Below, in pieces: positions 13,019 through 30,533 of a stretch of DNA of 32,806 nt. The notes beneath the pieces were generated by a model that saw nothing but the letters and a program-made list of their open reading frames with translations, did not search any database and was not told the origin of the DNA. Where the stretch lies: assembly GCF_000332215.1 (NCBI RefSeq), contig NZ_ALWB01000030.1, forward strand, positions 1-32,806, given 5' to 3'. Origin of the DNA: Pseudanabaena biceps PCC 7429 (GTDB taxonomy: Bacteria > Cyanobacteriota > Cyanobacteriia > Pseudanabaenales > Pseudanabaenaceae). Position numbers and translations under genes: made by a program. Positions within the stretch are counted from its first letter, which is position 1. Each line of letters starts with the position of its first letter.

Positions 13019-13948
13019 CAGCCTGTTGAGGCATTAAGGGATACAATGGATAGAAACAGAAAAACAGGAAAAAAAGAGCTATGCCAGCATATTCCCTAGA
13101 TTTCAGAAAGAAGATCGTAACAGCCTACGAAGCAGGAAATACATCAATCCGCGAAGTTGCCAAAAGATTCATGGTAACTAAGCGAACAGTACAAAGATTA
13201 ATATGGTTGAGCAATATCCCGACTGGACATTATGGCAATACTGCGAAGAAATAGCCGAAAAGACAGGATTATCAGTGAGTACAGGCAGTCTATGTCGATT
13301 TCTGGCAAAACAAGAACTGACATTAAAAAAAAGACATTTCGCAGTGAAAAAGTCGTAAGTGAAGAAGTACAACAAGAAAGGGTTGATTTCTGGCAACAAG
13401 TCAAGGATATAGCTCCAGAATCTTTGATCTTTATCGACGAATCCGCCCTATGGGAAGGGATGGAGCGCTCAGTGGCAAGAAGTCCAAAGGGACGCAAAGC
13501 TTTTTCCCTCAGAACTCTGTACAAAGGTCAAAAACATACACTGATCGGTGCTATCTCAATTAAGGGACTGGTAGGCAGGAAAACGATTAAAGGTTCAATG
13601 AAAGGCAAGGACTTTGAAGATTTTATTCGGGATGATTTATGTCCTCATCTATCCTCGGACAATGTGGTGGTGATGGACAATCTCAACTCCCATAAATCGG
13701 CTCAAGTGCAGCAACTGATTACGGCTACTGGCGCAAAGCCTTTGTATTTACCTCGCTATTCTCCTGATTTTAATCCCATTGAAATGCTTTGGTCGGTACT
13801 CAAGTCCTTTGTTCGCAAATTTAAACCGCATTGTTTACTTGTCATCCAGATTGTCTTGAAAACATTCTTTCTTTTGCTCGATAAATCTTTCTTCTCAAAC
13901 TGGTTTTCCAAATGCTGCTATTGTACCCCTTAATTCCTCAATAGGCTG
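13019..13948 (+). mobile_element. IS630-family insertion sequence (930 bp)
   Basis: The ends are inverted repeats of 29 bp with 26 matches: left starts CAGCCTGTTGAGGCATTAAG, right (reversed) starts CAGCCTATTGAGGAATTAAG. Both ends are flanked by the dinucleotide TA (13017-13018 and 13949-13950), the expected target duplication for IS630/Tc1-like elements. A single transposase reading frame on the plus strand is broken (see the pseudogene entry). The element separates the VapC relic from the acyltransferase gene. Confidence 0.9.
13081..13933 (+). pseudogene. IS630 transposase, broken across three frames
   Basis: Frame 1 (ATG 13081, stop 13252) begins MPAYSLDFRKKIVTAYEAGN and covers an N-terminal helix-turn-helix up to TKRTVQRLI. 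Frame 2 (ATG 13203, stop 13356) carries MVEQYPDWTLWQYCEEIAEK and the rest of the DNA-binding part, ending HFAVKKS. Frame 3 (13232-13933) contains the DDE domain: IDESALWEGM, VVMDNLNSHK and NPIEMLW supply the D, D and E. Between RTVQRLI and MVEQYPDW about 30 residues of linker normally present in relatives appear missing, so a deletion is likely. The frame 2 to 3 change at the A-rich site near 13326 could be programmed frameshifting, which occurs in IS630 elements. With the deletion, the enzyme is probably inactive. Confidence 0.8.
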
Positions 13949-14112: not shown

Positions 14113-15495
14113 ATGGCAGTAGACCTGACTCGTGTCCAACCCCCCCTTAAAGTTTATCCACCGAAAGCCAATCAATTTATATTGAAAATCATCAGGCTTT
14201 TAACACCTTTCTGGTTACGTTGGCAATGCGGGATCAAGCAGATTGAAACCCGCTATATCGATCGCCTTGTGGAAGCTACCGAAAAATTTCAGAATGGGAA
14301 GGCAAGGTATATGCTTGCCTTTAGGCATCCGACCACAGACGATCCCTTCGCGATGTTGTATTTACTTGCCTATGCAGTGCCAGAGCAGGCGCGGGAAATG
14401 GGCATCAAATTAACCACCAAGCCCCATAGCGGATTTGTCTACGATCGCGGCATTTCTCTATGGGCAGGGGACTATATTAACTGGCTGTTTCCCGCACTAG
14501 GGGGTATTTCCATCTTTCGCGGTAAATTGGATCGCCCTGCCTTAAACCTAATGCGTCAGCAAATCACCAATGGCGATGTCCCTCTGTCTATGGCTCCTGA
14601 GGGTGGGACAAATGGCAAAAGTGAAGCCGTTGCTGAACTAGAACCTGGCATTGCGCAGATCGGCTTTTGGGCAACCGAGGACTTAGTCAAAGCAGGGCGT
14701 ACGGAGGAAATGTTAATTATTCCCGTGGGCATTCAATACGAATATGCCGCTGATGCTTGGGGCAAAATCGATCAAACCATTGCCATGATCGAAAAAGAAT
14801 GTGGCATCAGTAAACCCGCAATTACTGAGGATAACCGCTATCAAAGGCTCTATGACTTGGGGGGTTACCTCGTGCAATGGGTCAGTGATTATTACAAAGC
14901 CTTTTATGGTAATTACTTCAAATCCGATGCAGCCCCAACTACCGATGACTTGGCGATCAGTTTGCAGGATCTAGCCGATCGCATTCTCAGTGTTGCCGAA
15001 ATGAATTTTGGGATCAAAGCAAAAGGCACACCCGTTGATCGCTGTCGTCGTCTTGAGCAAGCAGGGTGGGATCGGATTTTTCGCAATGACATCGAGAATA
15101 TCCAAAATTTGTCCGAGGTCGAACGGGGCTTTGCGGATCAACTAGCCCTCGAAGCTAGTTACAGTAACTGGCATATGCGCATTGCCGAAAGTATCATTGG
15201 GGTAACGAGCAATTACGTGCGACAACATCCCAGTCCTACACGCTATGTCGAAGTTTTGAAATTAATGTGGAGCGTCTTGAAGCGGATCACCGATCGCAAT
15301 CCAGAGTCGATTTTCAAAAAAGATCCCAATTTTGGCGATCGCAAATTGATTATCTCGGTTGCACCGCCACTCTCTGTTTCCGAGCGTCTGGAGGAATATC
15401 AATCCAGTCGTATGGCTGCCAAGGAATGCACCCGCAAACTTACTGAGGAGATCCAGAACTCCCTGAAAAACCTAATCATTCCATCAGTCATCTAA
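14113..15495 (+). CDS. PlsC-like acyltransferase domain protein
   Basis: Predicted glycerolipid acyltransferase-superfamily protein of 460 residues. The catalytic-type motif H-x4-D is present as H72-PTTD-D77 (FRHPTTDDPF), and APEGGTNGKS (161-170) fits the second acyltransferase motif. A region around 115-137 (WAGDYINWLFPALGGISIFRG) supplies the glycerol-phosphate-side segment FRG. The C-terminal 230 residues are long compared with ordinary PlsC (about 250 residues in total) and have no domain I recognise. No signal peptide is seen, although the segment near residue 25-40 is moderately hydrophobic and could associate with membrane. The exact acceptor is not evident. It stands alone between the IS630 element and a repeat-rich convergent spacer with tsaD. 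Confidence 0.8.
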   Translation: MAVDLTRVQPPLKVYPPKANQFILKIIRLLTPFWLRWQCGIKQIETRYIDRLVEATEKFQNGKARYMLAFRHPTTDDPFAMLYLLAYAVPEQAREMGIKLTTKPHSGFVYDRGISLWAGDYINWLFPALGGISIFRGKLDRPALNLMRQQITNGDVPLSMAPEGGTNGKSEAVAELEPGIAQIGFWATEDLVKAGRTEEMLIIPVGIQYEYAADAWGKIDQTIAMIEKECGISKPAITEDNRYQRLYDLGGYLVQWVSDYYKAFYGNYFKSDAAPTTDDLAISLQDLADRILSVAEMNFGIKAKGTPVDRCRRLEQAGWDRIFRNDIENIQNLSEVERGFADQLALEASYSNWHMRIAESIIGVTSNYVRQHPSPTRYVEVLKLMWSVLKRITDRNPESIFKKDPNFGDRKLIISVAPPLSVSERLEEYQSSRMAAKECTRKLTEEIQNSLKNLIIPSVI

Positions 15496-21604: not shown

Positions 21605-24600
21605 TCAAACGTTCGTAGAGTTTAACTCTGGGATTTCTAAGGAAGACAAGGGGAACTTTCGATCTAGCAGCATGTAGGTATCCATTTCACCTCTTCCTTT
21701 GATAAAGACCTTACCGCGATACCAGAAGGAATATTTATCTTGAATTAAGTCGTAGGTAGATTGCGTGACTTGAATACCGCCTGCCAAACCGTGAGATTCC
21801 ATGCGACTGGCAATATTAACCGCATCCCCCCAGAGATCGTAAATAAATTTGCGGATGCCAATTACCCCCGCAACGACCGCTCCCGTGTTAATGCCAATGC
21901 GTAACCGAAAAGTTGTGTCATCTCCCCGTTTAAACTGAGCAATAGCTCTTTGCATCGCCAAAGCCATTTCCGCGATCGCTTCTGCATGATCGGCTCGGGC
22001 GGTTGGCAAACCACCAACCACCATGTAAGCATCCCCAATGGTTTTGATTTTTTCTAATCCCAAACGATCGGCTAACAAATCAAAGGAAGAGAAAATCTCA
22101 TTCAGCATCGTTACTAGATCGTTAGGAGAAACTTGGGTGGATAGCGCCGTAAAGTCCACAATATCTGCAAACAAAATGGTTACGTTATCCGATCTAGAGG
22201 CGATCGTATTATGTCCTAATTTCAACTCGCTCACGATCGCCTTGGGCAAAATATTGAGCAATAAATTTTCCGATTTTTCCTGTTCCGCTTTTAGAGCTTG
22301 TTCGGTTTGCTTGCGTTCCGTAATATCTTGCACTAGCCCTTCGTAGGAAATGAAATTCCCCTGTTGATCGTAATTAGCCTTGGCATTAATCAAAATCCAA
22401 ATGATACTGCGATCGCTCTTATAAACCAGAGCCTCAAAGCTATTGACCGAACCATTAGTAGAAATCTGATGTAGGAGATCTTGATAGCGCTCAGGCTCTG
22501 TAAATAAACGATAGGGATCGTCTGCAACTTTAGTTAGTAAGTCGCTAGGTGTGTCATAACCATAAATATTGGCGAGTGCGGGATTGGCATTGATATAGCA
22601 GCCATCGGGCTGCGCTTGAAAAATACCTTCGATCGCCCGTTCAAAAATGCTGCGATACTTCTCCTCCGCTTGGCGAAGTGATTCTTCAATTTGCTTTTGA
22701 TGACTAATATCAATAATCACGCCATCCCAAACTGTATCGCCATTTTCATGCCGATGGGGCTGAGAAATAATTCTGACCCATTTCACTTTCTCAAACAGAC
22801 TGGAAACCCGATACTCATGCTCGAAAGTGATCAAAGCTTCAGCGGAATTTTGGACGATCTCATTGAGTTCGGCACGATCCTCAGGATGAGCCATATCAAA
22901 TACCCATTCCAAATGCTCGGTGAACTCCTCCACCGATATGCCAAATATTTCCTGTGTACGGGGGCTGATATAGGGCATGGAGACTTCGCCATCGGGGTGT
23001 AAGACGGCTCGATAGACTACTCCTGGCACATTGTCAGCGATCGCCGAAAATCTTTGTTGGCTTTCCCTTAATAGCATCTCCGCTTGCTGTCGATCTGTGG
23101 CTTCATTTTGAAGACGCTTGATCGTTTTCTGTAATTGGATCGTCCGCTGCTCAATGCGCTGTTCTAGCAACTCATTAGCATCCCGCAAGGCTCCTTCGAC
23201 ATTTAACAAATCCGCCTGTGTCTTCAGCAAACGTTGATTGGCATTAAATAACTTCGACATCACCGCACGGGTGATCTCGGGAGCCAGTTGATTCCGCCCC
23301 TTGCCATGTCCTCGCCCTAAGAGCTCCGCGATCGTCATTTCCAAATCTTGCGCATCTTTTTCGAGTTGCCAACTCTGCTGAATGCCTTGGGTGATATCAG
23401 CAAGCATCTCGATCGCTACGGTTGATGTCTTTGCAGGCAGATCTTCTACACCCAACCAAGGCATTGGCTTAATGGGATCAATAGTATAGAGAATTTCAAA
23501 ATGGCCCACATTGGAAATTTCGGCAATCCGACAGGCTGTCCAAATATGTTGGTTGCGATCGCAGACAATTTTTCCCGCAGGGGAGTCAAAGCTCTGACCA
23601 TAGGCGGCTTGGCGAACCGCAATCCCATCAAAGGTTTGGGCAGACTCTACCGCCTGTTTCCATAGAAACACCTGACTATAGGCGGACTGCATCGTTACAT
23701 GCACCGCTGGCAGTGGCTTTTGACTTGCCTCAAACCAATGGGCAACTTTCCGCAAAAAATCTTGATTTTGACTAGTATCTAGACTCTGAAAATAATTAGC
23801 GCTAGCCAAATGCCCCGCGATCGACCCTAACTCCAGATGGTCTTGCCTAAGGCGATCGCATAGCTGCCGCAATTCTAAATCGGTAAACCGTAAAGCAAGC
23901 ACGGGAATTTCCGCCGCCGTAATTCCCGCTTCAGCATACTGCTGCAAAAAAGCGACAGAATTTGCTAAGGAAAGGGTTATAACTACCGTAGTTGGCTCAA
24001 TATGCTTGATTTTGGCAATAATATCGCGATAATTAGTGATATTACGCGGAACATAGTCTTCACCTAAGAGAAGCCCATTTTGCAGCTTGAGTTGGGCGCG
24101 AATAATCTTATTAACCGTACGGGAATAAATACCATCTGTCCCTATTAAGTACAAGCGATCGCCCTTATGTTGCAGCAGCCAATCAATGGCGGGTTGGACG
24201 ACTTGGTTCGGACATGTACCTGTATAAAAGACATTAGGCGAGCATTCTAGCCCTTCATAGCCATAGGGATACCATAGTTGCGATTGCGTCTTGACCAGCA
24301 GGGGAATAACACTTTTGCGATTCGAGGATGTACCGCAACCAAATAAATTTTTAACTTCTAGTTCAGTAATTAAAGCTCTTGTTTGCAAGGCAATATTCTG
24401 ATCGTTAGGGGCAATATCCACTACGATGGGCTCGATGGTTCGACCTAATATGCCGCCTGACTGATTGATTTCGGCGATCGCCATCAAGGTGGCATCTTTG
24501 ATGAGGGTCTCGCTGCCCAGATCATCACCCCTTAAGTCAATTCTTGAGTCACTCAAGGAGTTTATGACTCCAACTCGAATGACTTCAGTCCTACTTTTAT

Positions 24601-24634
24601 TTTCAGTATTTAAGGACTTAGCCTTTCGATCCAT
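21605..24634 (-). CDS. UrtA-like sensor, PAS-PAS, adenylate cyclase fusion
   Basis: Predicted cAMP-producing signalling enzyme, 1009 residues. Residues about 15-390 resemble UrtA/AmiC-type urea and amide binding proteins (IAEINQSGGILGR, GCGTSSNRKSVIPLL, WYPYGYEGLECSPNVFYTG). A coiled-coil linker (about 450-515), two PAS domains (about 520-645 and 650-775) and a class III cyclase (about 800-985) follow. The metal aspartates (D824 in LFADIVDFT, D868 in IGDAYM), adenine-specifying K864 and D933 (YDLWG), and N940/R944 (VNIASR) are present, predicting adenylate rather than guanylate cyclase. No signal peptide or membrane helix is visible. ATG 24634 is preferred because AGGGAG lies about 10 bases upstream; GTG 24646 sits against that site. 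The ligand is inference. Confidence 0.88.
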   Translation of the reverse strand: MDRKAKSLNTENKSRTEVIRVGVINSLSDSRIDLRGDDLGSETLIKDATLMAIAEINQSGGILGRTIEPIVVDIAPNDQNIALQTRALITELEVKNLFGCGTSSNRKSVIPLLVKTQSQLWYPYGYEGLECSPNVFYTGTCPNQVVQPAIDWLLQHKGDRLYLIGTDGIYSRTVNKIIRAQLKLQNGLLLGEDYVPRNITNYRDIIAKIKHIEPTTVVITLSLANSVAFLQQYAEAGITAAEIPVLALRFTDLELRQLCDRLRQDHLELGSIAGHLASANYFQSLDTSQNQDFLRKVAHWFEASQKPLPAVHVTMQSAYSQVFLWKQAVESAQTFDGIAVRQAAYGQSFDSPAGKIVCDRNQHIWTACRIAEISNVGHFEILYTIDPIKPMPWLGVEDLPAKTSTVAIEMLADITQGIQQSWQLEKDAQDLEMTIAELLGRGHGKGRNQLAPEITRAVMSKLFNANQRLLKTQADLLNVEGALRDANELLEQRIEQRTIQLQKTIKRLQNEATDRQQAEMLLRESQQRFSAIADNVPGVVYRAVLHPDGEVSMPYISPRTQEIFGISVEEFTEHLEWVFDMAHPEDRAELNEIVQNSAEALITFEHEYRVSSLFEKVKWVRIISQPHRHENGDTVWDGVIIDISHQKQIEESLRQAEEKYRSIFERAIEGIFQAQPDGCYINANPALANIYGYDTPSDLLTKVADDPYRLFTEPERYQDLLHQISTNGSVNSFEALVYKSDRSIIWILINAKANYDQQGNFISYEGLVQDITERKQTEQALKAEQEKSENLLLNILPKAIVSELKLGHNTIASRSDNVTILFADIVDFTALSTQVSPNDLVTMLNEIFSSFDLLADRLGLEKIKTIGDAYMVVGGLPTARADHAEAIAEMALAMQRAIAQFKRGDDTTFRLRIGINTGAVVAGVIGIRKFIYDLWGDAVNIASRMESHGLAGGIQVTQSTYDLIQDKYSFWYRGKVFIKGRGEMDTYMLLDRKFPLSSLEIPELNSTNV

Positions 24635-24948: not shown

Positions 24949-27357
24949 TCATAGACTGCGGTCTAGGGTTCGAGTATCAAGCGGAGACTGGGGTAAAACA
25001 TAGCACATGGCATTAGAGATTGACTGATGTAAAACCAACAAAATCTTATCTCTAGCCGTATCTAAATGATCTAGATCGAGCCCTAGACAATCATATAAAT
25101 CTAAGTTTGCAAATCTTTTTTGAAGCCAATTTATTTCCGCGATCGCCGATTTAGTAACGATCAAAATCGGCAAATCGGCAAGTATCTCTAACTGACTAAT
25201 ATCTTCTAGACATTGCAATAAAGACTGATTATCGCCATCAAGTAAAAATAGATCTGGCAGCCAGATCTTAGCTAAAATATCGCATTGAGCAAAGTCTTCC
25301 GCCTCCAAAAGACAATGCCCTAGCTCTTGCAATAGTTCAATAACCGACTCTTCCAAATTCTGATTTAAGTATAAAAATTTGAGAGGTTTAGGCGTAGGGA
25401 CATGGTTGGGTAAAAAGTGGCTAAGTTCGTTTGCCTTCAGTGGCTTGAGCAAAATTCCATCAGCTTGATGAACCGCTATTTTCGGTTCATCTGGGCGTTT
25501 CATCATCACCACGCGGATATGTTGCGTTACTAAATCTCCCTTGAGTAAAGCTAAAACATCCCATCCCGATAACATCGGCACATGGGGACTTAAAAGAATT
25601 AAACATGGCTGCAATCGCCGAGCTTTTTCGAGGGCTTCTGTCCCCGATCGCGCAACTACCACCTGATACTCTAGCTGCGTCAGAGTATTTCTCAGCCAAT
25701 CGACTACTTCAGTCGAAGTTTCCACAATCAAGACCAAACGGCTATGACTCATATCAAGCTGGCGATCCTGTCCCAACTTTACATGAGGATTGTTGGGCTC
25801 AGGAGGTAATAGAATGGTAAACTGGCTACCCACATTCACCTGTGATACAAAGGTAATATCCCCACCATGCAAACGGGCTAAATGTCTAGTCAATATCAAA
25901 CTCACACCCGTCCCTTCAAAACGGCGCGTGAGAACACTTTCTACCTGTTGAAATTTTTGAAATACTAGGTTCTGTTTCTCCTCAGGAATCCCAATCCCTT
26001 GATCCCAGACTGTAATTGCCAACCAACCTTCCCACCATTTTGCGGTCACTCCAATTTTGGGAGGCGTAGCTGGCTCATCATCCACCAATTCCGATGGCAA
26101 AAAGCTAAATTTAAAGGCATTAGAAAGAAGACTCACCAGCATTTGCTGCAATCGCGTCTCATCGGCATAAACAGTTTGGACTGTGGGCTCGATATCGAGC
26201 TGAATATCCAGTTCCCATCCTTCCTCAAAGTGATAGTTACGGAAAATCGTAGAATCCTGTTGAACGAGCTTCTTGACCTGCTGAATACTTTTTTGGCAAA
26301 CTTCTCGGACGGAAACCGTCTCGGCATATAACTCTAATTGCCCCGACTCAGCCTTAGCGAGGTCGAAAATATTATCAATGATCGAAACCAGTTGCCGCCC
26401 ACTTTGGTGAATCATTTTTACATAGCGGCTTTGGCGATCGTTCAATTCCCCAAAAGTATGGTTGGTCAATAAACTAGCAATGCCAATTACCGAGGTTAAT
26501 GGCGTTTTCAGCTCGTGATTGATGCAGGTTAAGAATTCATCCTTGACCCGACTTAAACCTGATAATTCTTGCGCCAGATTTTTTTGCGCCGTAATATCGT
26601 AGGCGATCGATAGATCTAACCCTTGCAAAGCCCCCTGTAAAGAAACATTGATTACTTGCCATGTAAAAGATGCGCCATCGGTCGTGCAGAATTGGTGAGT
26701 TACGGGAGTAGTTTGCAGCAATTGCGGATCGTTAGCCGCAAATCCCGCATTCATAGCTTCCTCTTCCTGCAATAGTTCAGTGGTTGTAGAACTGACAATA
26801 TTAGCTAAGCTTTCATGCAGACTATTGCGCCAAGCCGCATTCATGCCCACGATCTCCCCATCTAAATCGCTAATCATTACAGGTAAGGGCAATTGATAGA
26901 TCAGGGGTAATAGCAGCGAAGTAATCGATGGGCTTTGACTTTGTTCAATTTGAATGAGCGATCGCAGTAATTTCGTGACTTCGAGAAGAGCAGTGAATTT
27001 GCCCTTGGTATCTACCAAAGCCCAAACTTCAGCGGAATGCCGATATTGCGAAATTCTTTGCAAAAAATCAGCGATCGTCATCGCCATCGAAATCGCAGGC
27101 AATGGCTCTAGATCAATGTCTTCTAACGCGATCGATGGTGCAACAAACGAGAAACTAACCGATTCAGATTGCCAATTTAGCAAACATCTTGCATTAAATA
27201 ATCCTTGTGGCAGATCGTTGTGATCGAGCACTACAACATTAGACCATCCTTTTTTAAGCAAGGCTAATGCTTCGGAGACATCAGTGGGCAGTCGGCAAAT
27301 AGCGACTAGCGACTGTCCATATATCTCTAAAGATTGATTTAAGATGAGGGAGTCCAT
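24949..27357 (-). CDS. Hybrid histidine kinase, CBS-PAS-HK with degenerate receivers
   Basis: Predicted cytoplasmic sensor kinase, 802 residues. Residues about 20-135 look like a CBS-domain pair (TDVSEALALLKKGWSNVVVL and a second similar unit). A PAS-like domain covers about 150-260, HisKA has the phosphorylated H281 (INHELKTPL), and the ATPase has N413, DQGIGIP (452-458) and FEGTGVSL. A first receiver-like domain (about 538-650) has S590 where the phospho-acceptor Asp should be (LILLSPHVPMLSGW), weakened acidic residues (LIVETST) but retained K638. A second one (about 658-780) keeps D707 but lacks the acid pair. No membrane helix is seen. It diverges from kaiA across 162 bp, which invites a clock role, but only position and the CikA-like pseudo-receiver support that. 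Confidence 0.85.
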   Translation of the reverse strand: MDSLILNQSLEIYGQSLVAICRLPTDVSEALALLKKGWSNVVVLDHNDLPQGLFNARCLLNWQSESVSFSFVAPSIALEDIDLEPLPAISMAMTIADFLQRISQYRHSAEVWALVDTKGKFTALLEVTKLLRSLIQIEQSQSPSITSLLLPLIYQLPLPVMISDLDGEIVGMNAAWRNSLHESLANIVSSTTTELLQEEEAMNAGFAANDPQLLQTTPVTHQFCTTDGASFTWQVINVSLQGALQGLDLSIAYDITAQKNLAQELSGLSRVKDEFLTCINHELKTPLTSVIGIASLLTNHTFGELNDRQSRYVKMIHQSGRQLVSIIDNIFDLAKAESGQLELYAETVSVREVCQKSIQQVKKLVQQDSTIFRNYHFEEGWELDIQLDIEPTVQTVYADETRLQQMLVSLLSNAFKFSFLPSELVDDEPATPPKIGVTAKWWEGWLAITVWDQGIGIPEEKQNLVFQKFQQVESVLTRRFEGTGVSLILTRHLARLHGGDITFVSQVNVGSQFTILLPPEPNNPHVKLGQDRQLDMSHSRLVLIVETSTEVVDWLRNTLTQLEYQVVVARSGTEALEKARRLQPCLILLSPHVPMLSGWDVLALLKGDLVTQHIRVVMMKRPDEPKIAVHQADGILLKPLKANELSHFLPNHVPTPKPLKFLYLNQNLEESVIELLQELGHCLLEAEDFAQCDILAKIWLPDLFLLDGDNQSLLQCLEDISQLEILADLPILIVTKSAIAEINWLQKRFANLDLYDCLGLDLDHLDTARDKILLVLHQSISNAMCYVLPQSPLDTRTLDRSL

Positions 27358-27519: not shown

Positions 27520-28401
27520 GTGCCTGTGTTGTCCAATCTACAAGTATGCTGTTTGGTGGCAGAAGCAAATGTCAACCAAACTAAATCTACCCTTGCCATC
27601 TTTTTACCTGAGGAGCGATACACCTTTACGGTGGTTTCAGATGTTGAAGCAATTGTAAGTTTACTAACAAAAACTCAAAATGCCCAAGATTGTCTAGTTA
27701 TATTTAAAGATATCAGGAGAGATATTGAGGCTGTCTTCGATCGCCTCGGTAAGTTAAATATTTTCATACCTACCATACTAGTTCTAGAAGATCTGTACGA
27801 ACAAAGCGAACCTCCCTATGAATACAGCGAATCAAAAGACTTTTACCGAGCTAGTATCAGCATTCACCGCGATCAGCTCCAAGATCTACCAATTATTATC
27901 GATCAGGCGATCGCCACTTTTATTAAGATCTCGCCACAAATTCAACATCAAGTCTTCGTCAACATTCCATATACTGCCGCATCAGAATCTTTAAATGTCC
28001 AACAACAGAGACTAGCGCAAAAGCTTAATGAAAGATTGGGGTATTTGGGGGTGTATTACAAACGCGATTCACGATTATTCCTACGCAATCTATCTCCTGA
28101 AGATAGAAAAGAGTATATTGAACGCTTAAAGAACATCTATCGGTCGATCGTCCTTGAGTATTTCTTAGAAAAAAATGACAACCTCAATCAAAAAATTGAT
28201 GAATTCGTTAATTTATCATTTTTTGCCGATATCTCCGTATCCCAAGTTCTAGAAATTCATATGGAACTAATGGACGAATTTGCCAAGCAATTAAGACTAG
28301 AGGGTCGAAATGATGAAATCTTACTGGACTATCGCATCACGCTAATCGACATGATTGCTCACCTCTGCGAGCTATACCGCCGCTCGATTCCGCGATCTTA
28401 A
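27520..28401 (+). CDS. kaiA: Circadian clock protein KaiA
   Basis: Stimulates KaiC autophosphorylation by holding the KaiC A-loops in their exposed state. The 293-residue protein has the full two-domain form: an N-terminal pseudo-receiver (about 1-150) and a C-terminal four-helix KaiA domain (about 175-293). The C-terminal domain closely matches the Synechococcus sequence, for example QRLAQKLNERLGYLGVYYKR, FFADISVSQVLEIHMELMDE and LLDYRITLIDMIAHLCELYR, ending RRSIPR. The start is GTG at 27520; a second GTG at 27526 is possible. kaiB follows after 268 bp, probably with its own promoter, and the hybrid kinase gene diverges from here. Confidence 0.97.
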   Translation: MPVLSNLQVCCLVAEANVNQTKSTLAIFLPEERYTFTVVSDVEAIVSLLTKTQNAQDCLVIFKDIRRDIEAVFDRLGKLNIFIPTILVLEDLYEQSEPPYEYSESKDFYRASISIHRDQLQDLPIIIDQAIATFIKISPQIQHQVFVNIPYTAASESLNVQQQRLAQKLNERLGYLGVYYKRDSRLFLRNLSPEDRKEYIERLKNIYRSIVLEYFLEKNDNLNQKIDEFVNLSFFADISVSQVLEIHMELMDEFAKQLRLEGRNDEILLDYRITLIDMIAHLCELYRRSIPRS

Positions 28402-28669: not shown

Positions 28670-28969
28670 ATGATTCGTAAAACCTACGTCCTAAAACTCT
28701 ACGTCGCAGGCAACACGCCAAACTCGGTGAGGGCGCTGAAAATGCTCAACGATATCCTTGAGAAAGAGTTTCAAGGAGTTTATACATTGAAGGTCATTGA
28801 TGTGCTTAAAAATCCACAACTAGCTGAAGAAGATAAAATCCTCGCTACGCCAACCTTAGCAAAGGTTTTACCTCCCCCAGTTAGAAAAATTATTGGCGAC
28901 TTGTCCGACCGAGAGAAAGTATTAATCGGACTAGATCTACTATATGAGGAATTAATTGGCAATGACTAG
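28670..28969 (+). CDS. kaiB: Circadian clock protein KaiB
   Basis: Binds phosphorylated KaiC in its rare fold-switched thioredoxin-like form and sequesters KaiA, closing the negative loop of the oscillator. The 99-residue length is close to the Synechococcus protein (102 residues). Typical segments are [59 protein letters not shown] and [12 protein letters not shown]. The ATG at 28670 gives the conserved N terminus; no strong ribosome site precedes it. The stop codon overlaps the kaiC start, so the two are translationally linked. Confidence 0.98.
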
Positions 28970-30533
28970 CTCACCCATCGAAAACAATAACAACATCAAT
29001 ACCGATAATAAAAGGCAAGAGCTAGGTGTCCAAAAACTACGCACCATGATTGAGGGGCTAGACGACATCACCCATGGTGGGCTACCCAAGGGGCGATCCA
29101 CGCTTGTAAGTGGTACATCTGGCACTGGAAAAACGCTACTAGCAATGCAGTTTCTCTACAACGGCATCACGGGGCTAGACGAGCATGGGGTATTTGTTAC
29201 TTTTGAAGAATCTCCTTCTGACATTATTAAAAATGCCCATAGCTTTAACTGGGATCTCCAAGAACTCATCGATCAAGGTAGATTATTTATTCTTGATGCT
29301 TCTCCCGATCCTGAAGGGCAAGAAGTAGTGGGAGATTTCGATCTTTCCGCGCTGATCGAAAGGATTCAATACGCCATCATTAAATACAAAGCAAAGCGGA
29401 TCTCGATCGATTCCATGACCGCGATCTTCCAGCAATACGATTCCTTAGGTCTAGTCCGTCGCGAAATTTTTCGTATTGTTGCGAGACTAAAATCCTTAGG
29501 TGTTACCACAGTCATGACCACCGAGCGCGAGCTGGAATATGGTCCCGTAGCAAGATTTGGGGTAGAAGAATTTGTTTCCGATAATGTAATTATTTTAAGA
29601 AATGTCCTCGATGGAGAACGTCGCCACCGAACAGCGGAAATCCTAAAACTCCGTGGAACCACTCATATGAAAGGCGAATTTCCTTTTACAATGACCAGTA
29701 AGGGGATCAATATATTTCCCTTGGGAGCTATGCGCCTTACTCAAAAATCCTCCAATACAAGAGTTTCTTCTGGGATTGCAACCCTTGATGAGATGTGTGG
29801 CGGTGGCTACTTTAAGGATTCAATTATTTTAACCACAGGGGCAACAGGTACTGGTAAGACCCTAATGGTAAGCAAGTTTATTGAAAACGGCTGCGAAAAT
29901 GGTGAACGCGCAATTTTATTTGCCTATGAGGAATCTCGCCAGCAGCTTACCCGTAATGCTTCTTCTTGGGGAACTGATTTTGACAAGTGGGAGAGTTCGG
30001 GTTTATTAAAAATTATCTGTGTTTACCCTGAATCCTCTGGGCTAGAAGATCATCTACAAGTAATCAAATCTGAAATCGAGTCCTTTAAGCCATCCCGCAT
30101 TGCGATCGATTCTCTCTCAGCCTTGGCAAGAGGTGTAAGTAATAATACTTTTAGACAATTTGTAATTGGCTTAACGGGCTATGTTAAGCAAGAAGAGATC
30201 ACTGGTTTATTCACAAATACAACCGATCAGTTCATGGGGTCGCATTCAATTACGGAATCCCATATCTCTACGATCACAGACACAATTATTCTGTTGCAAT
30301 ATGTAGAAATTCGTGGACAAATGTCCCGCGCAGTCAATGTCTTTAAGATGCGGGGATCGCGCCATGACAGCCGCATTCGTGAATATATCATCACCGATCA
30401 AGGCGCGCAGATTAAGGATTCATTCCAAGGATTTGAGAGAATTTTAAGTGGTTCGCCAACCAGAGTATCCGTCGATGAGAAATCTGAGCTTTCAAGAATC
30501 ATCCGAGGAGTATCTGTTGAACCCTTAGAATAA
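28962..30533 (+). CDS. kaiC: Circadian clock protein KaiC (ATPase/autokinase)
   Basis: Central oscillator protein: a hexameric double-domain RecA-like ATPase with autokinase and autophosphatase activity. From the chosen ATG it is 523 residues. The CI domain has Walker A GTSGTGKT (51-58) and the catalytic pair E82/E83. The CII domain has GATGTGKT and FAYEES with the matching glutamates. The phosphorylation sites are intact: S436 and T437 in [10 protein letters not shown], equal to Synechococcus S431/T432, and T431 equal to T426. The C-terminal A-loop region ends [16 protein letters not shown] at 28956 is also in frame, but ATG 28962 gives the usual MTS start; GAGGA at 28946-28950 serves it. 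The start overlaps kaiB by 8 bp. A strong terminator follows. Confidence 0.98.

Follow-up and report, generated by a model that had tools for sequence, protein, structure and literature searches.

A cytoplasmic UrtA/AmiC-type flytrap joined to a class III adenylate cyclase in Pseudanabaena, with a pocket probably re-specified away from urea

The window, that is, the whole stretch of 32,806 nucleotides analysed here, encodes on its minus strand a 1009-residue fusion protein (21605..24634) in which an UrtA-like sensor precedes two PAS domains and an adenylate cyclase. Its orthologues begin with the same methionine (MNRE/MDRK), which supports the ATG at 24634; an alternative GTG start is possible 12 bp upstream. 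The neighbouring gene on the same strand encodes a hybrid histidine kinase with PAS, HisKA and HATPase domains (24949..27357). Its receiver-like domain has Ser instead of the usual phospho-acceptor Asp (LILLSPHVPM) and is followed by a second receiver-like segment. Beyond it lie kaiA (27520..28401, plus strand), a kaiB-like reading frame (about 28670 to 28956, plus strand) too short for the ORF list, whose cut-off is 100 aa, and kaiC (28956-30533). The window also holds a DDE_3 transposase gene (13232-13933, plus strand) and a 460-aa ORF with no Pfam match (14113-15495, plus strand). No RNA elements were found within the window. Its source is a cyanobacterium of Pseudanabaena type, with Pseudanabaena species as the nearest named relatives.

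Pfam identifies Peripla_BP_5 at residues 38-395 of the fusion (334 bits), PAS_3 at 555-639, PAS_9 at 669-773 and Guanylate_cyc at 813-989 (215 bits). The domain order is thus the one proposed in the first-pass annotation: sensor, two PAS domains, class III cyclase. Together with structure prediction and Foldseek hits to 8tg1, the Pfam match delimits a Venus-flytrap sensor of the type I periplasmic-binding-protein fold (residues about 19-395; 23450..24580, minus strand, as for all domains of the protein). Then comes a helical linker (396-545; 23000..23449), defined by conservation and the predicted model, with a fusion-specific motif, PWLGVE...LADITQGIQQSWQLEKDAQDLE, common to other soluble UrtA-like sensors. 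PAS domain 1 is encoded at 22718..22972 and PAS domain 2, missing from four orthologues, at 22316..22630. A pre-cyclase helix conserved among orthologues (EQEKSENLLLNILPKAIVSELK; 22220..22285), which we take to resemble a cyclase transducer element, leads to the catalytic domain (21668..22198). The full-length model is of moderate confidence (pLDDT 69.5, pTM 0.42), so domain packing was left uninterpreted.

The catalytic domain is competent as judged by its residues. The two metal-binding aspartates D824 and D868, the adenine-specifying K864 and D933, and the transition-state residues N940 and R944 are all present, as in class III adenylate cyclases, and are invariant in 26 sequences. K864 and D933 confirm the earlier assignment as an adenylate cyclase and led us to reject a guanylate cyclase identity. 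On these residues, the fusion is predicted to make cAMP from ATP. Since the genome contains 17 class III cyclase and nine cNMP-binding family matches, cAMP signalling is plausible in this organism.

For the sensor, an AlphaFold2 model of residues 1-545 was computed with 44 aligned sequences. Its mean pLDDT is 82, and most sensor blocks exceed 85. The top Foldseek match is 8tg1, a urea-binding protein from Caldicellulosiruptor (E 4e-38, TM by target 0.86), followed by the UrtA structures 7s6e, 8hic and 7s6f, and then by AmiC 1pea (1.7e-29, 0.87). The nearest solved chains are therefore those of urea-binding proteins, with AmiC (1pea/1qnl) behind them, and the UrtA/AmiC fold claimed from the sequence is borne out. 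The protein is nevertheless not UrtA itself: its TIGR03407 score is 323.1 bits, under the curated cut-off of 492.75, and while UrtA is exported and encoded with urtBCDE, the fusion has no export signal and the urt genes lie on another contig.

In hydropathy analysis of the fusion, the highest mean over 19 residues is 1.44, and neither a membrane helix nor an export signal is seen. With the N-terminus, this led us to reject an exported or membrane-anchored protein and agrees with the cytoplasmic location first suggested. By the same measure, the 25 Pseudanabaena orthologues are all free of transmembrane segments and export signals, and so are the other soluble fusions. Hence, the idea of a cytoplasmic binding-protein sensor in the manner of AmiC holds, as an UrtA/AmiC fold lacking an export signal. 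The separate UrtA-type protein of the same genome has an N-terminal twin-arginine/lipobox-like sequence.

The ligand is where the initial proposal weakens. Nine pocket residues are named in the Prochlorococcus UrtA-urea structure, in which Ser122, Gln144, Tyr190 and Asn246 make six hydrogen bonds to urea; mutants at any of these four positions have reduced or abolished urea binding, and W120A fails to bind it (PMC10392092). We mapped the pocket by alignment to 8hic, in the order W120, S122, Y141, Q144, E146, Y190, F192, N246, S274. The resulting string is GSYGEGYSR in the fusion, WSYQEYFNS in UrtA and YSYPEYYVT in AmiC. Of the four hydrogen-bonding residues only Ser122 is kept, Gln144 and Tyr190 having become Gly and Asn246 Ser. 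In addition, Trp120 is replaced by Gly, Ser274 by Arg and Phe192 by Tyr, so that among Trp120, Ser122, Tyr141, Gln144, Glu146, Tyr190, Asn246 and Ser274 only Ser122, Tyr141 and Glu146 remain. In fusion numbering, these positions fall in four segments, all on the minus strand: G101 (UrtA Trp120), T102 and S103 (Ser122, kept) at 24326..24334; Y122 (Tyr141, kept), G125 (Gln144, lost) and E127 (Glu146, kept) at 24254..24271; G168 (Tyr190, lost) and Y170 (Phe192 to Tyr) at 24125..24133; and R249, at the Ser274 position, at 23888..23890. The last three segments were supported by conservation as well as by alignment.

The changes do not restore an AmiC pocket either. We take Tyr83, Ser85, Tyr104, Pro107, Tyr150 and Tyr152 to be the AmiC residues with roles at the UrtA pocket positions; the equivalents of Tyr83, Pro107 and Tyr150 are all Gly in the fusion, and Ser85, Tyr104 and Tyr152 are kept. 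The hallmark segments GCGTSSNRKSV and WYPYGYEG...FYTG, from which a urea/amide-binding protein had first been recognised, are indeed present, but substituted pocket positions lie inside them. On the other hand, a pocket lacking all ligand contacts, named in the first-pass annotation as grounds for abandoning its reading, is not quite what we see, given the kept Ser122, Tyr141 and Glu146.

This pattern extends across the genus. In the 25 Pseudanabaena orthologues, the window's included, Tyr141, Glu146 and the Tyr at 192 are invariant, and Ser122 and the Arg at 274 are each found in 24, the P. cinerea orthologue lacking the Arg. Position 190 is Gly or Ser in all 25; positions 144 and 246 vary freely. 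The earlier version of the hypothesis, a cytoplasmic urea or short-chain amide sensor turning a nitrogen signal into cAMP, can draw on the proximity of the sensor to urea-binding proteins and then AmiC in sequence as well as fold, on the three kept residues, and on the urease, urtABCDE and formamidase genes of the genome. Yet the genus-wide loss of Gln144, Tyr190, Asn246 and Trp120 and the entry of Arg affect the very positions at which UrtA mutations weaken or abolish urea binding (PMC10392092), and one species, estimated to be 99% complete (G282), has the fusion with no secreted UrtA-type protein at the threshold used. We therefore consider a urea or short-chain amide ligand distinctly improbable for this protein.

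Because the pocket has been re-specified, with large side chains lost and an Arg gained, its ligand is probably a metabolite other than urea, and possibly an anionic one. Arg is also found in the C-lobe wall of other cyclase fusions that have lost Tyr190, replacing Asn246 in L044-L046 and Ser274 in L137; this makes an acidic ligand a reasonable, if speculative, guess. A changed pocket need not rule urea out in every case, however, since the protein encoded in the urt operon of this genome likewise deviates from the UrtA pattern. That protein, the genome's one strong transporter protein of UrtA type (L064:8900-10306, minus strand, contig C20), has the AmiC-like, non-urea pocket YSYYEYYVP, unlike the canonical UrtA of other Pseudanabaena species. 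Its gene is the first of a urtABCDE operon, with a formamidase gene alongside and ureC in the vicinity.

The full-length fusion is present in 25 of 26 Pseudanabaena species, and the 26th genome, 82% complete, contains a broken fragment; a chance or single-genome fusion was accordingly rejected. Mean conservation among orthologues is 0.75 for the sensor, 0.86 for the linker and 0.90 for PAS1, the span from PAS1 and linker to cyclase being 0.86-0.90. In six close pairs, dN/dS ranges over 0.08-0.28 in the sensor, 0.04-0.11 in the middle region and 0.01-0.12 in the cyclase, and the sensor value exceeds both others in all six. The sensor is thus the fastest-evolving part of the protein. With PAS1 as conserved as the cyclase (0.90), these figures would also suit a flytrap domain that has lost ligand binding and now acts as a scaffold or a dimerisation module, in which case the true input would come from the PAS domains, PAS1 especially. 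We regard this as unlikely, because sensor dN/dS is still well below 1, because five cleft positions (Ser, Tyr141, Glu146, the Tyr at 192 and the Arg at 274) hardly vary, unlike their neighbours, and because inspection of the PAS domains recognised no cofactor motif. Values of 0.08-0.28 indicate a constrained, not a decaying, sensor and, with the invariant cleft residues, do not favour a pseudogene-like domain. The sensor is undergoing retuning or is under looser constraint, but it is not dead, and the altered pocket is maintained within Pseudanabaena under purifying selection.

Gene order around the fusion is also stable. Each of the 21 Pseudanabaena loci examined, two of which are nearly identical, has a divergent kaiA followed by the hybrid histidine kinase and the fusion, both on the same strand. 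By comparison, pheA, on the other side of the fusion, is conserved in five of 19 loci with room for it. Such a fixed neighbourhood, together with the precedent of AmiC docking AmiR (1qo0), could mean that the sensor mainly docks a partner protein, for instance the adjacent kinase or a clock-associated protein. We find this very improbable: gene order within one genus may reflect history only, and gaps of 123-1105 bp between kinase and fusion across the 21 loci do not suggest one tight operon.

A family survey was carried out on a sample of 386 cyanobacterial genomes (best candidates, so that counts are lower bounds) and complemented by a GTDB contig scan. The architecture search found soluble UrtA-like fusions in several cyanobacterial families, whose outputs include multi-PAS adenylate cyclases (Moorena, Symploca, Lyngbya aestuarii), histidine kinases with or without GAF (e.g., Coleofasciculus, Spirulina) and GGDEF diguanylate cyclases. 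Nearly all soluble members have a linker after the sensor with a consensus near (K)PLPWLGVEE...VVI(D/E)MLAEVSQ.IQ...QLEQKSRELE. The motif spans the cyclase, histidine-kinase and diguanylate-cyclase fusions and is absent from proteins with membrane helices. The Pseudanabaena fusion has the features of this group, namely an N-terminal UrtA-like domain, no transmembrane segment and a PWLGVE...LAEVSQ linker before the output. In a sensor-domain tree, built by a quick method and containing several long branches, the soluble fusions stand apart from secreted UrtA, AmiC and membrane-bound kinases (starred branch, 99), the sole exception being a histidine-kinase fusion (L093); a sister-genus protein (L095) sits on a very long branch and its placement is unsure. 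Soluble UrtA-like sensors with the shared linker motif thus form a wider, apparently undescribed group, and the literature searched yielded nothing relevant on the flytrap-cyclase architecture.

Within the survey, the full UrtA pocket pattern is seen in 24 of 27 shorter, mostly secreted transporter-type proteins, in all three diguanylate-cyclase fusions, in 11/26 soluble histidine-kinase or other fusions and in 6/14 other soluble cyclase fusions. Many of the remainder differ from it at one position, often by Gln144 to Glu, so that secreted UrtAs and most soluble fusions outside Pseudanabaena read WSYQEYFNS or a one-position variant. The urea/amide reading, weakened for the Pseudanabaena fusion, looks reasonable for several relatives with an intact urea pocket in other parts of the phylum. 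Seven proteins of another type (L048-L054) have an UrtA-like domain with no signal peptide before it, then two membrane helices, HAMP, a histidine kinase and, in most, a receiver; the urea pocket is intact in six. A contig labelled Chloroflexaceae encodes a fragment of a soluble UrtA-like sensor (L150) and may be mis-binned cyanobacterial DNA.

Overall, the explanation we favour, and hold to be somewhat more probable than its rivals taken together, is a class III adenylate cyclase, soluble and probably a homodimer, that is gated by a cytoplasmic UrtA/AmiC-type flytrap of urea-type descent, re-specified to a probably non-urea, possibly anionic metabolite. By analogy with homologous systems, which suggest both the cyclase dimer and the gating path, a small intracellular solute would close the two lobes of the flytrap. 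Passing along the long, helical linker, through the PAS domains and on through the pre-cyclase helix, this movement would set the alignment of the cyclase dimer and thereby the rate of cAMP synthesis. The sensor would descend from a urea-type module common to many soluble cyanobacterial sensors, its pocket having presumably been re-specified in Pseudanabaena by loss of large side chains and gain of Arg, with Ser122, Tyr141 and Glu146 kept. A bolder version, which we hold as possible but doubtful, envisages an undescribed cyanobacterial sensor module, an UrtA-derived flytrap plus transmitter helix with three output types, that mostly reads urea; in Pseudanabaena it would have switched to an anionic metabolite and become a fixed neighbour of clock genes, so that metabolite level would be tied to cAMP and perhaps to the clock.

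Cytoplasmic binding-protein sensors are already known from AmiC; here a flytrap is joined covalently to a class III cyclase. If such a ligand-gated cyclase is real, it illustrates a route by which the binding proteins of transporters become receptors inside the cell. The family would then constitute a natural experiment in pocket change, and would provide candidate intracellular urea sensors in cyanobacteria as well as a new input to cAMP signalling. As urea pockets are intact in some lineages and rewritten in others behind the same linker, ligand and output are testable by domain swaps.

The fusion can be set beside several known systems. It shares with UrtA (8hic, 7s6e, 8tg1) the fold, 32-39% identity over the structural alignment and Ser122/Tyr141/Glu146. 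Unlike UrtA, it is not exported, is joined to an output, falls under the family cut-off, retains just one of the four residues that hydrogen-bond urea, has lost Trp120 and has gained an Arg. AmiC, the cytoplasmic amide sensor of Pseudomonas aeruginosa (1pea, 1qo0), has the same fold and likewise controls an output instead of transport, but it is a separate protein acting on AmiR and its pocket differs (YSYPEYYVT versus GSYGEGYSR). CyaC-type cyanobacterial class III adenylate cyclases, with PAS/GAF inputs, resemble the fusion in their C-terminal catalytic domain, PAS input and conserved pre-cyclase helix; the N-terminal flytrap sensor, found in no paper searched, sets it apart from them. Finally, in receptor guanylyl cyclases such as the ANP receptor, a type I binding-protein fold also gates a class III cyclase. 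These receptors are, however, transmembrane proteins with an extracellular hormone site, whereas the fusion lies entirely in the cytoplasm and its predicted product is cAMP.
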